A DNA stretch of 46,535 nt from a virus: the IMG/VR virus record IMGVR_UViG_3300021197_001925, positions 1-46,535 of that record. One strand, written 5' to 3'. Below the pieces are notes generated by a model. That model saw only the letters and a list, made by a program, of their open reading frames with translations, was not told the DNA's origin and made no database searches. Shown here piece by piece: positions 2,622 through 39,294 of the stretch; the stretch's first letter is position 1; the number at the start of each line of letters is the position of its first letter. Made by a program: the position numbers and the translations under genes.

Positions 2622-5333
2622 ATGAGCGAAGAAGACTTCGAACCGCATCTGATGTATGACCCAGAAACGGGCGAGGGTGTCATGGCCGACACTTTCGAAA
2701 AACATCTTAGGCTGAAAGATCTTGGTTACACACACAAAGTGTCTGCTCAGGACGAGCACCCCTATGTCGATGCTGACATAGAAGCCGCTGAGATATCCGA
2801 CACGGTAAAGAAAAGTCTTCAGGGTAAAGTTGATAAACATAACGAGTCTGTTTCGTCCGACTCGAAGAGAGCGACATTGCGTTCGCTTGTGTCAGTATTC
2901 AAGAGAGGCGTTGGGGCATACCACACCAACCCAGGTTCAGTCAGGCCCAGCGTCAAAAGCCCAGATCAGTGGGCTCATGCAAGAGTGAATTCTTTTTTGG
3001 ATGCCCTTAAGAAGGGGAAGTTCAGAGGAGGAAAGCATGACACAGATTTGTTCCCGAAGGGACATCCCCTTTCCAGCAAAGGTAAGAAGATGGCTGCATC
3101 GTACAAACCAGAAGACATCGTTTTTTTATCGGACTCGTTTGAGATAAAGGCTTACCAAGAAGAGCCGAGTTCGGAAGATCCGGCGGTTGATCCAGAAGAG
3201 GTAAAGAGCTTTGACATCACTGCTTACAACGGTGGTTCACTGTCGCTTCCTAACTTCCCAGAAGCTGCATACATCGATATCAGCAGTGCATATATTCACG
3301 GCAGCGAAGGGCAACAGCCTATTCTGAAAGATCACGACACGAGAAAGATTGTCGGACATGGTACGCCAGTGATCGAAGGCTCAATGATGCGAGTCGATAG
3401 CGGTGTCATGAGCCATGACAATGAAGACACAAGAGAAATAATTGCTGCCGCAAAGAAGGGGTTTAAATGGCAAGCCTCTGTCGGTGGAAAAATGACACAA
3501 CGTCCACTTCTTCTAAAAGAAGGCGTGACGAAGTTAGTAAATGGCCGGAATGTTTCCGGTCCCGCAGTTGTGGTTCGCGGTTTTATGTGGCGTGAAACCA
3601 GCATCTGTGGAATTGGTTGTGATGACGAGCGAGCTTCGGCTCGCGTAGCAGCTTCTCAAGGAGCAATTACGATGGAATTTGAACAGTGGCTTGAGGACGC
3701 AGGCTTCGCGGCTGACGACCTCAACGATACACAGATTGATTCGCTGAAAGCAGCGTTTGAAAAACAGAACACCGAAGCTCAGGAAGAGCCTCAAGTGGTT
3801 GAGATCGAAGCTTCGGCTTCTTCTGAGCCAAGTAGTGAGTCGGTCTCACAGCCTCGGTTCGATCCCGAAGTTGCAGCATCGGAAGATACTCGAAAGTATC
3901 TTGACAGCGTTCGCGCTGCTCGTCGCAAAGAAGATGCTCGAGTTCAAGAGCTCGAGACAGTTCACGCCGAGTACAACAACAGCGTACCCAAGACGATTCT
4001 TGCTGAGTTGTTCGACAGCGCAATTGCTGGCGATTTGGATCGTAACAAATTTGAGCTCGAGTGCATCAAGGCTGCTCGCCAGCCTCGTCAAGCAACTGCT
4101 CCTCGCGGATATGCTCGACGACAGTTTGATCAGGATGTCATCGAAGCCTCGTTGCTCCGCACTGGCGGAATGAGCGAAGACGGTGTTGCTGATTCTGTCA
4201 AACGTGCCGTTGGTTCAGGTCGCCAAGAAGAGGTGATGAACAAAGCTTACGAGCGAGAGATGCAAGGATTCGGTCTTCAGGACTTGGTCTACGCTGCACT
4301 GGAAAGCACCGGAGAAGAAATCCCTTCTCGTCGATGCAACGGCCAGACTATCGAAGCTGCTATGCGAGCATCGAAAGAGATTCGTGCATCGAGTGCGAAC
4401 AGCAGCATCAGCTTGCCTGGCGTACTTTCCAACATTGCTAATAAGCAGATGTTGCAAAGCTACGAAGACAACAAAGGCATCTGGGACAAGATCTCTTCGA
4501 CTACTGACACTAGCGACTTCAAGGCATTCGACTCATATCGTTTGACTGAGGCTGGTGTTCTTGAGCAGATCGGTCCTTCTGGCGAGATCAAGCATGCTTC
4601 TCTTGGCGAAGATTCGTTCAGCAATCGCGTGATCAATCACGCTCGCCTGATCGGACTCACTGAAGAGATGTTGATGAACGATGACTTGGGCGCATTCCAG
4701 CGTCTCGCTCGTCACTTCGGACGCATGTCTGCTCATGCCATCGAGCAAAGCGTCATCCAGACTCTTGCTGGTGCTTCGGTATCAACTGGAGCAGGATCGT
4801 CCAGCGACTTCTTCCGAGGTGCTGCACTTGGCAACACGCAGCCTAACTACTTCGAGGGTGCGTCATCTGCATTGAGCATTGACAGCCTTGGAAGCGCATG
4901 GCAAATGTTTGCTGATCAAACTGACCGCGAAGGCAAGCCTATCATGCTTGACCCCGCTGTTCTTTTGACCACGACCGGCAACGCAATTCTTGCGAAGAAC
5001 TTGTACAACAGTACTGAAGTTCGGATTGCTGGAAGCAGTGACCGTACTCGCGCTGTCAACAATGCTTGGGCTGGAATGTTTGAGCCTGTGATGTCGCAGT
5101 ACTTGAGTCAGTCTGCATACGGCGGGTCCGCTACCGAGTGGTACTTGGTTAGCCGAGTCAGCGATGACTTTGCTCCTATCCAAGTTGCTTTCCTCAACGG
5201 TCAGCGTACTCCACAGATTGAGCGATTCGATTACGATCCGAACATGCTCGGCGTGACTTTCCGCGCCAAGCTACCATTCGGCGTAGCACTTCAGGATCCT
5301 CGTTGCATCGTGAAGAGCAAAGGCGCAGCATAA
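2622..5333 (+). CDS. Fused prohead protease, scaffold and major capsid protein
   Basis: 903 residues in one frame. Residues about 83-150 contain an R-G-x-G-A-Y ... QWAHARVNSFL ... HDTDLFPKGHP module that I recall from marine-phage head proteins. Residues about 195-345 look like a prohead serine protease: candidate catalytic His238 in LKDHDTRKIVG and Ser286 in WQASVGG. Residues 350-520 are charged, Glu/Ser-rich and coiled, as expected of an internal scaffold. From about 525 the chain resembles an HK97-fold major capsid protein, with a conserved C-terminal half (MFADQTDREGKPIMLDPAVL, then FDYDPNMLGVTFRAKLPFGV). The protease presumably cleaves itself and the scaffold away during maturation. Separate genes are more usual. 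A strong terminator follows. Confidence 0.85.
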   Translation: MSEEDFEPHLMYDPETGEGVMADTFEKHLRLKDLGYTHKVSAQDEHPYVDADIEAAEISDTVKKSLQGKVDKHNESVSSDSKRATLRSLVSVFKRGVGAYHTNPGSVRPSVKSPDQWAHARVNSFLDALKKGKFRGGKHDTDLFPKGHPLSSKGKKMAASYKPEDIVFLSDSFEIKAYQEEPSSEDPAVDPEEVKSFDITAYNGGSLSLPNFPEAAYIDISSAYIHGSEGQQPILKDHDTRKIVGHGTPVIEGSMMRVDSGVMSHDNEDTREIIAAAKKGFKWQASVGGKMTQRPLLLKEGVTKLVNGRNVSGPAVVVRGFMWRETSICGIGCDDERASARVAASQGAITMEFEQWLEDAGFAADDLNDTQIDSLKAAFEKQNTEAQEEPQVVEIEASASSEPSSESVSQPRFDPEVAASEDTRKYLDSVRAARRKEDARVQELETVHAEYNNSVPKTILAELFDSAIAGDLDRNKFELECIKAARQPRQATAPRGYARRQFDQDVIEASLLRTGGMSEDGVADSVKRAVGSGRQEEVMNKAYEREMQGFGLQDLVYAALESTGEEIPSRRCNGQTIEAAMRASKEIRASSANSSISLPGVLSNIANKQMLQSYEDNKGIWDKISSTTDTSDFKAFDSYRLTEAGVLEQIGPSGEIKHASLGEDSFSNRVINHARLIGLTEEMLMNDDLGAFQRLARHFGRMSAHAIEQSVIQTLAGASVSTGAGSSSDFFRGAALGNTQPNYFEGASSALSIDSLGSAWQMFADQTDREGKPIMLDPAVLLTTTGNAILAKNLYNSTEVRIAGSSDRTRAVNNAWAGMFEPVMSQYLSQSAYGGSATEWYLVSRVSDDFAPIQVAFLNGQRTPQIERFDYDPNMLGVTFRAKLPFGVALQDPRCIVKSKGAA

Positions 5334-33347: not shown

Positions 33348-33662
33348 ATGCCAAGAAAAGAGATAGTCTGTCAGTTTGGGGTTCAGGACCTAGCGGATGT
33401 TTGCGGCTGCAGCAAAAGCGCAGTGTTTCATCACATACGAAAGGGAAGTCTGGATATGAATGACTTGGTCTCGGTAGTAAAGTTTATTGCAAGCAAAGGA
33501 TCGGACGACATTCGCTTGGAGATTGGACAAGCGTATGGTCGCATTGGATCCTACGGACCTCCTGTCAAAGCCGACAGCAAAAAAGGCGAGCTTCAGAGAA
33601 AGGTCGCCGCTGCAAGCAAGAAGCAAGAAACAGTGAAAAAAATTGCTAGGTTGCAAGGATAG
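33348..33662 (+). CDS. Small helix-turn-helix protein
   Basis: 104 residues with AGAGGG before ATG 33348. The opening 'FGVQDLADVCGCSKSAVFHH' is a good helix-turn-helix with the recognition helix at 'SKSAVFHHIRKG'. The C-terminus is Lys/Ala-rich. It is transcribed away from the leftward cluster, so it may control the divergent gap, perhaps as the lysogeny regulator. Its end overlaps the convergent gene 33646-33894 by 17 bp. Confidence 0.6.
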   Translation: MPRKEIVCQFGVQDLADVCGCSKSAVFHHIRKGSLDMNDLVSVVKFIASKGSDDIRLEIGQAYGRIGSYGPPVKADSKKGELQRKVAAASKKQETVKKIARLQG

Positions 33663-34160: not shown

Positions 34161-34477
34161 GGTGTAGCGGGTGTATATCGGGTGTACAGTACACCCTGTA
34201 CATTACCCTAAAGGGTTGTTAGCGGGTGTAAATTGCGTTACCATCATCAATGAACCCAAGATGGTTTGGCCCCGCAAAAAGCGGCAAAACAATCCCTTTC
34301 CAAGTCTCGCTCGGTGACCGGCTACTCCGGTCTACGGAACCGAAGGTTACAAGTTCGAATCTTGTGGGGTGTACTCTTTTTGCGGTGTTTCAGCCACTTG
34401 TCACGCTAGCCTTTACACCCGATGGTGTAGTCACGGGTGTAGCAAAGGTGTAGTGAACAAGGTGTAGCCGAGGTGTA
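34161..34477. repeat. Cluster of twelve GGTGTA hexamers around attP
   Basis: GGTGTA on the plus strand begins at 34161, 34170, 34181, 34225, 34368, 34424, 34436, 34447, 34461 and 34472; on the minus strand it occupies 34190-34195 and 34414-34419. Right-side spacings are 12, 11, 14 and 11 bp, close to one helical turn. 34180-34196 is a perfect 17-nt palindrome (GGGTGTACAGTACACCC). One copy coincides with the tRNA acceptor end. The pattern fits integrase arm-type sites; the last copy ends 2 bp before the integrase start. Confidence 0.85.
34328..34373 (+). other. attP: Phage attachment site (attP core): 3' half of a tRNA-Arg(ACG) gene
   Basis: This segment folds exactly as tRNA positions 28-73: a 4-bp anticodon stem, loop CTACGGA with anticodon ACG, a 5-nt variable loop AAGGTT-type, T stem ACAAG/CTTGT with loop TTCGAAT, acceptor GGGGTGT and discriminator A. 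The pair at 27/43 fails and no D arm or 5' acceptor is found upstream, so identity with the host tRNA begins around position 28. No CCA is encoded. Phages commonly carry such tRNA 3' ends to restore the gene on integration, and the integrase starts 106 bp downstream. Confidence 0.85.
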
Positions 34478-34479
34478 CC

Positions 34480-35592
34480 GTGAAGCAGAAAAAACAAAAG
34501 CCAGACAAGCCGTACCCCGAATTCCCTCTATTCGCCCACGCTTGTGGGAAGTGGGGAAAAAAGATTGCTGGAAAGATCGAGTACTTCGGTCGCTGGGAAG
34601 ATCCAACTGGAGCCCTCGCTGAATACAAGCGTCTCTACGCTGATGAGGTCGGAACGCTCTCCGTAAAAACCTACCTGTCCCTGTACGATGGACTCAATGA
34701 GTTCCTTGTCGCCAAGGAGGACTCCAAGATTGCGGGGTCTCTCTCCGAAATATCGTTTCGAGATTACAAGCAAACATGCAAGTCTCTGATTAGACACTTT
34801 GGCGAAGAGGCCGATGTAAGCAAGCTTGGACCCAGCGATTTCGTTCGCTACAAGCGAGAGCGTTCCAAGCAATTGAACCTAGTATCCATGGGGAATGAGA
34901 TACAGCGGATTCGTACTGCTTTCAAATGGCTTCGCCAGTCGAAGTTGATTCTTGATGAACCCGAATACGGACCAGATTTCCGCAAGCCGACAGCGTTGCA
35001 AGTGCGAAAACATAGGCGGAATCTTGGAAGCAAGTGTTACACTCCCGAACAGATCCAGCGATTGCTTGATGAGTGCGGTGTGCATTTGAAAGCTATGTGC
35101 TACCTAGGGTTGAACTGTGCCTACGGACCAACTGATATCGCTCGGTTAGAGCTCAGTCTTTATGAGCGAGCGAGAGAGCCTACTTTCCTCGAGTATCCAC
35201 GCCGCAAGACAGAGATCGCTCGCTGTTCGTGGCTGTGGCCTGAGACGATTGAGGCGATAGACAAATCTATTGAGAGACGAACAGAGCCGATTCGGGAAGC
35301 AAAAGAGTTGCTCTTCACTTACCGAGATGGAGGCTCATGGGAGCGCAATTCAGTTCCAATCAGCAAGCGTTTCGCTGACGCAAGGAAGTGGGCGGGAATG
35401 CGGAAGGGGGATTTCTACTGGCTTCGCCACACTTTTGAGACCATCAGCGGCTCGGCAAAGGACCAGGTGGCTACAGACCTAGTCATGGGGCATGTCGATC
35501 CCAGCATGGGAGACAACTACCGACATCACATTGACGATTCAAGAATCAAGGCTGTCTGCCAGCATGTTCGTAGCTGGTTGCTTGAATCGTGA
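34480..35592 (+). CDS. int: Tyrosine integrase
   Basis: 370 residues from a GTG start. The N-terminal 180 residues form arm- and core-binding helices. Catalytic residues seen are Arg316 and His317 in 'FYWLRHTFETISG', His338 in 'VMGHVDPSMGDNY' and nucleophile Tyr347. The first catalytic arginine, normally G-x-R in box I, is not at its place: the region reads 'LGLNCAYGPTDIARLELS'. This variant is one I associate with planctomycete phage integrases. The upstream GGTGTA repeats reach its start, suggesting self-regulation. The start lies 106 bp from the tRNA end. Confidence 0.92.
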   Translation: MKQKKQKPDKPYPEFPLFAHACGKWGKKIAGKIEYFGRWEDPTGALAEYKRLYADEVGTLSVKTYLSLYDGLNEFLVAKEDSKIAGSLSEISFRDYKQTCKSLIRHFGEEADVSKLGPSDFVRYKRERSKQLNLVSMGNEIQRIRTAFKWLRQSKLILDEPEYGPDFRKPTALQVRKHRRNLGSKCYTPEQIQRLLDECGVHLKAMCYLGLNCAYGPTDIARLELSLYERAREPTFLEYPRRKTEIARCSWLWPETIEAIDKSIERRTEPIREAKELLFTYRDGGSWERNSVPISKRFADARKWAGMRKGDFYWLRHTFETISGSAKDQVATDLVMGHVDPSMGDNYRHHIDDSRIKAVCQHVRSWLLES

Positions 35593-39061: not shown

Positions 39062-39294
39062 CAGAGAATTTTCCTTGTTCGCTCGTTTGCTCGACGCCTT
39101 CTGCGTTCAGACATTTGCGTATTTGATCTCGCATCTAAAAACTCAGCGAGATTGAGCTCACTAACCCGCCACAGCGGTGCTCTGCTCGGACTCGGACTCA
39201 CATTGACTGCCTTGAGTTGAGCACTGTCGATCCACTCAGTAACAGTCGCCATCGAGACTCCCAGTCGTTTTGATATTTGCGTTCGCGTAAGCAT
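39061..39294 (-). CDS. Small HTH (MerR/excisionase-like) protein
   Basis: 77 residues. 'MLTRTQISKRLGVSMATVTE' is a winged or MerR-type helix-turn-helix start, followed by 'PLWRVSELNLAEFLDA', which is the usual wing and helix of excisionase-like DNA-binding proteins. The end is Arg-rich (RRRRRANERTRKIL). It lies in the early operon between the oxygenase and the ribbon-helix-helix gene, not next to the integrase, so a direct excisionase role is uncertain. Confidence 0.65.
   Translation of the reverse strand: MLTRTQISKRLGVSMATVTEWIDSAQLKAVNVSPSPSRAPLWRVSELNLAEFLDARSNTQMSERRRRRANERTRKIL

Follow-up and report, generated by a model that had tools for sequence, protein, structure and literature searches.

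Phased GGTGTA repeats around a tRNA-derived phage attP as probable arm-type sites of an integrase family with a changing arm word

The GGTGTA repeats that lie, phased, around the attP of virus record IMGVR_UViG_3300021197_001925 are very probably arm-type sites of the tyrosine integrase encoded beside them. We regard them as candidate integrase arm sites because the same layout recurs in related integrases with differing words, and because a residue of the integrase N-terminal domain, Lys28, tracks the word. This kind of attP is already known, and its family-wide variant is new. The assignment was made by comparing sequences of related loci and by modelling the integrase.

Results

The GGTGTA cluster

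The window, by which we mean the whole stretch of DNA that was analysed, comprises positions 1-46,535 of the record. There are no terminal repeats in this 46.5-kb virus record, which is probably incomplete because no terminase large subunit was noticed among its listed open reading frames. The record encodes a portal (219-2315) and a protease fused to the major head protein (2622-5333). A sequence-only reading of this DNA had reported twelve copies of GGTGTA within about 320 bp, right-arm spacings of 12, 11, 14 and 11 bp, and clustering beyond chance, and all three statements hold. An exact-match scan of both strands finds exactly 12 copies in 34161-34477, ten of them forward (starting at 34161, 34170, 34181, 34225, 34368, 34424, 34436, 34447, 34461, and 34472) and two reverse (34190 and 34414), and the right-arm spacings are as reported. 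Over the whole window GGTGTA occurs 30 times against 8.97 expected, a number reached in 0 of 100 shuffles. When the 317-bp stretch itself is shuffled 1000 times with dinucleotides preserved, GGTGTA occurs 0.49 times on average and 3 times at most, and the commonest hexamer of any kind in these shuffles has a mean count of 2.94 and a maximum of 6, so that the cluster lies far over both the global and the local expectation. The runner-up among independent clustered hexamers in the window reaches 7, and none is comparable to GGTGTA. The arm word is really 7-8 bp long, CGGGTGTA, with all eight bases matched in six copies, and one of the reverse copies takes part in a near-perfect palindrome, GGTGTACAGTACACC, at 34181-34195. 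The features of the region, together with an excisionase-like gene considered below, are as follows.

34161-34166, plus strand: left-arm (P) site 1, GGTGTA (exact match)
34170-34175, plus strand: left-arm site 2, GGTGTA (exact match)
34181-34195, no strand assigned: left-arm inverted pair GGTGTA-CAG-TACACC, sites 3 and 4 (exact match)
34225-34230, plus strand: left-arm site 5, GGTGTA (exact match)
34327-34373, plus strand: attP core, tRNA-Arg(ACG)-like 3' fragment from anticodon stem to acceptor end, 47 bp (sequence; parallel fragment in L010)
34332-34338, plus strand: anticodon loop CTACGGA, putative 7-bp overlap (crossover) region (from comparison with relatives)
34368-34373, plus strand: acceptor-end GGTGTA of the tRNA fragment, probably a coincidence (exact match; comparison of loci)
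34414-34419, minus strand: right-arm (P') site, reverse GGTGTA (exact match)
34424-34477, plus strand: right-arm direct array of five GGTGTA (34424, 34436, 34447, 34461, 34472)
34480-35592, plus strand: tyrosine integrase, 370 aa, GTG start (phrog_1, E=5e-22; AlphaFold2; Foldseek)
39064-39294, minus strand: HTH_17 excisionase-like protein, a likely candidate for the recombination directionality factor (excisionase family match)

The integrase

Among phage integrase families the protein matches phrog_1 (E=5e-22), its AlphaFold2 model has a mean pLDDT of 91.5, and the best PDB matches of that model in Foldseek are full-length lambda integrase structures (1z1b/1z1g); all three analyses identify the core-binding plus catalytic fold of a tyrosine recombinase. 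An N-terminal arm-binding domain (about residues 12-55) precedes the core-binding and catalytic domains and is modelled as a small beta-sheet domain with strands at 24-29 and 32-38 and a helix at 42-53. The family profile aligns with lambda Int from lambda residue 16. Within the catalytic RKHRH-Y set, K243, R316, H338, and Y347 are conserved, the first Arg aligns with Gly (G216), and the first His aligns with Tyr313; exceptions to this set are known (PMC8138268). The replacement extends through the integrase family (the window and L010-L061), where Gly stands for the first catalytic Arg and mostly Tyr for the first His. An invariant arginine, R241, lies two residues before the catalytic lysine and might stand in for the first catalytic Arg.

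A recurrent attP layout with differing words

Searches with the single integrase sequence at default limits returned nothing from viral contigs, genome contigs, phages, or plasmids, and at E<=10 gave only weak partial matches among phages and plasmids. The family was entered through a degenerate DNA motif for the conserved catalytic C-terminal end, which yielded eight loci, and profile scans then recovered several dozen integrase relatives from viral contigs. Arm words were read from the DNA upstream of each int and could be assigned in 28 relatives, making 29 loci with the window; in roughly a dozen others no word could be read. L015 has a weak word, CGAGCA, that was not used in the statistics, and L087 was left out because its GGCGCA repeats are one-sided and lack a right-arm pair. 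The words found are GGTGTA, GGTGTC, GGTGTG, GGAGTA, GTTGTA, GTTGTC, and GTTGTG, and further GGGACA, AGTGTG, ACTGTA, TACGTCA, AGCGT, and GGTAGTA. The word thus varies from integrase to integrase, and int is the gene recovered in all loci.

The layout is common to these differing words. An inverted pair of the 6-8 bp word occupies the far arm, a direct pair lies next to int, and the tRNA-derived core, where present, is found between them. The window is one of 16 loci, out of 29, that have the head-to-head pair, its gap being mostly 1-4 bp, and the direct pairs are spaced by a median of 11.5 bp, with 11 or 12 bp in 30 of 42 cases. L154, for example, combines GGTGTCG-TA-CGACACC with a direct pair of period 12. 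This arrangement recurs in relatives of roughly 25-47% identity, and a strict scan for one 6-mer in both kinds of pair finds it upstream of int in 11 of 40 loci as against 1 of 40 inside int. Two integrases, L027 (from 3815 on) and L043 (from 3995 on), carry a tandem-duplicated N-terminal arm-binding domain, and at both loci several sites are arrayed on one side only. The viral contig of L018 also encodes a second, broken integrase (L122), whose arm-binding domain runs into unrelated sequence.

The recurrence of the layout bears on the idea that a phage repressor, for instance the small HTH-like protein encoded at 33348-33662, uses the repeats as operators, in which case they would scarcely be concerned with recombination. 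The palindromic GGTGTACAGTACACC does resemble a dimer operator and the repeats adjoin the start of int, but the small HTH-like protein is without a relative in the 33 related loci compared, while the repeat layout recurs, and the repeats surround a tRNA-derived core. We consider repressor operators extremely improbable here.

The tRNA-derived core and the shared hexamer

In the window, five GGTGTA copies lie to the left of the tRNA fragment and six to the right. From 34327 the fragment consists of the anticodon stem CCGGT, the loop CTACGGA, and the stem ACCGA, followed by a T arm (ACAAG-TTCGAAT-CTTGT) and the acceptor GGGGTGTA. Neither ARAGORN nor Rfam calls a tRNA here, as expected for a fragment; an Rfam match to PYLIS_3 (E=0.25) was far under the cut-off and was ignored. 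Phage DNA lies on both sides of the fragment and the site is therefore an attP, an attL or attR junction being ruled out on the same ground. A perfect 10-bp inverted repeat, CCGCAAAAAG / CTTTTTGCGG, at 34272-34281 and 34376-34385 also flanks the fragment. A 21-base exact scan of genome_contigs and viral_contigs found no host copy of the tRNA end; the host may be one of the Planctomycetota, to judge from the type of integrase.

The crossover point is suggested by the relatives. L018, L022, L023, L027, and L154 carry a 5' half of a tRNA, the window, L010, and L012 carry a 3' half, and the anticodon arm is the part common to the two. Because both kinds of half include the anticodon arm, we infer a crossover in the anticodon loop, and strands are probably exchanged in that arm instead of the acceptor end.

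The last six bases of the fragment, 34368-34373, are one of the twelve GGTGTA copies, so the sequence-only reading was right that one copy is the tRNA acceptor end itself. From this it had suggested an integrase whose arm sites and core share a hexamer, such that the integrase or its arm domain would also read the tRNA acceptor end. The match is shared by the window and its sister L010, each with a tRNA-Arg 3' half and GGTGTA arms, and a permutation test gives p=0.04 when these two are treated as independent; they count as one event, however, because they form one supported clade (96). Of the 18 loci in which a tRNA-derived core is present and the word could be assigned, just 2 contain their own word in the tRNA part, this one sister pair, against 0.42 expected for random hexamers, and the other 16 have no such match. 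L013 and L043 have GGTGTA arms and tRNA parts without GGTGTA, and GGTGTA is also the word of L052, L053, and L061, where no tRNA part is seen. Furthermore, 30 bp separate the acceptor end from the putative crossover loop, and the core half-sites in the anticodon stem (ACCGA/ACCGG) are unlike GGTGTA. A hexamer shared on purpose is thus very unlikely, and the match at the tRNA end is probably a coincidence; what stands of the earlier suggestion is the assignment of arm sites to the integrase, supported by the layout and the N-terminal covariation, and what falls is sharing by design. It is likewise highly doubtful that the acceptor-end GGTGTA serves the lineage comprising the window and L010 as an additional functional arm site, one found also in the bacterial attB. 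If it were, the integrase arm domain would also hold the host target.

Covariation of the arm word with the N-terminal domain

We scanned 351 integrase columns across the 29 loci for association with the arm word. The most associated column is Lys28 of the N-terminal domain, for which z is 4.3 overall and rises to 8.1 for word position 3. K28 is paired with G at position 3 in 22 of 22 loci, and residues other than K28 (R, T, or F) go with A or T at this position in 6 of 7; Fisher's test for the pairing gives 1.5e-5 with the relatives treated as independent, and on the tree the traits change 4-7 times each. Two further pairings are R24 with C at word position 8 (5 of 5) and C/V26 with T at position 4 (4 of 6). 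All three residue-base pairings were first spotted by eye in the same data, and the unbiased scan gave K28 alone. Residues 24, 26, and 28 alternate along the predicted beta-strand 24-29 of the AlphaFold2 model, and the pattern is what direct reading of the word by the beta-sheet domain would produce. Exceptions are L072 (R28 with G) and two loci, L030 and L042, that have C at position 8 but lack R24, and in L154, the one clear new locus, the residue pairing is broken and the strand has an insertion. Mean association is 0.98 for N-terminal columns as against 0.3-0.4 for the other domains, a modest excess, and a tree-aware sign test had 2 supported pairs and was underpowered.

Another candidate for binding the repeats is the excisionase-like HTH_17 protein, which in that case would bend attP, attL, and attR and perhaps repress int. 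In phage lambda the Xis sites are clustered at one place in attP, whereas the repeats here occupy both arms right up to int, and the strongest word-protein association in the 29-locus scan is with a residue of the integrase. On the other hand, an HTH_17 protein of this kind, matching excisionase families, is present in 11 of the 12 related records examined, directionality factors are able to bind beside int and repress it (PMC2951348), and across the 22 loci that have both genes the association statistic does not separate the integrase from the HTH_17 protein. Overall, we judge it unlikely that the HTH_17 protein is what the repeats bind.

Possible autorepression of int

The cluster ends 2 bp before the GTG start of the integrase gene (34480), and the last GGTGTA copy overlaps its ribosome-binding sequence, GAGG (34470-34473). 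With the right array extending this far, integrase bound to it probably represses int. Self-repression had been proposed for this region from the position of the copies, and the position is as described; a sigma-70-like scan recognised no int-strand promoter in the region, although that consensus may not be the host's. Integrase promoters that overlap att are common and several such genes are autoregulated (PMC2951348). Repression by the integrase of its own gene is plausible but ordinary.

Discussion

We propose the following mechanism for the window. The stretch would be the attP of a temperate phage, with a core that derives from a truncated tRNA-Arg gene and would be cut by the catalytic part of the integrase, the anticodon loop being the likeliest position. 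Apart from the copy at the acceptor end, all GGTGTA copies (five to the left and six to the right, 11 in total) would be held by the small N-terminal beta-sheet domain. A single integrase could thereby bridge arm and core DNA and build a recombination complex as in phage lambda, and the arm spacings of near one helical turn would align adjacent subunits along the same DNA face.

This proposal agrees in its essentials with lambda, whose attP layout has been described and where a two-domain reader of DNA likewise has arm sites flanking the core and an N-terminal beta-sheet domain (PMC4880445). Lambda differs in having five arm sites and no tRNA core, whereas the sites of the window number 11, are short and include a tightly spaced inverted pair. 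A tRNA core with multiple arm repeats is also found in the attP of the mycobacteriophages L5, CrimD, and Pixie (cluster K), the arm repeats of CrimD being paired and 11 bp long (PMC3203893). In cluster K, moreover, arm words differ between related integrases, N-terminal residues 17 and 19 have been proposed as the reason, and this change is a precedent in miniature for the variation of word and residue described here (PMC3203893). In cluster K the two members of a pair are in direct orientation, or inverted with the core between them, unlike the far-arm head-to-head pair with its gap of 1-4 bp, and the integrase family of the window differs from that of L5, CrimD, and Pixie.

In E. coli the integrase gene of KplE1, IntS (argW-intS), also lies beside a tRNA-Arg core, and its promoter and att sites overlap with negative autoregulation (PMC2951348); autoregulation was measured in KplE1 and is inferred in the window. 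With regard to catalysis, the first catalytic arginine is absent from its usual place in the IntDes and IntCTnDOT subgroups as well, and IntDes, described from Desulfovibrio only, also has a tyrosine as its first histidine, a likeness in catalytic residues alone (PMC8138268).

The interest of these findings rests on the change of arm word and on a candidate pairing of residues with bases, and not on the hexamer at the tRNA end. The layout offers a simple route to attP sites in metagenomic phages. The family appears to keep one attP layout while the arm word changes, accompanied by corresponding substitutions in a single strand of the domain that reads the DNA. Exchanging a few residues or bases would thereby be a direct test of how integrases acquire a new arm specificity.
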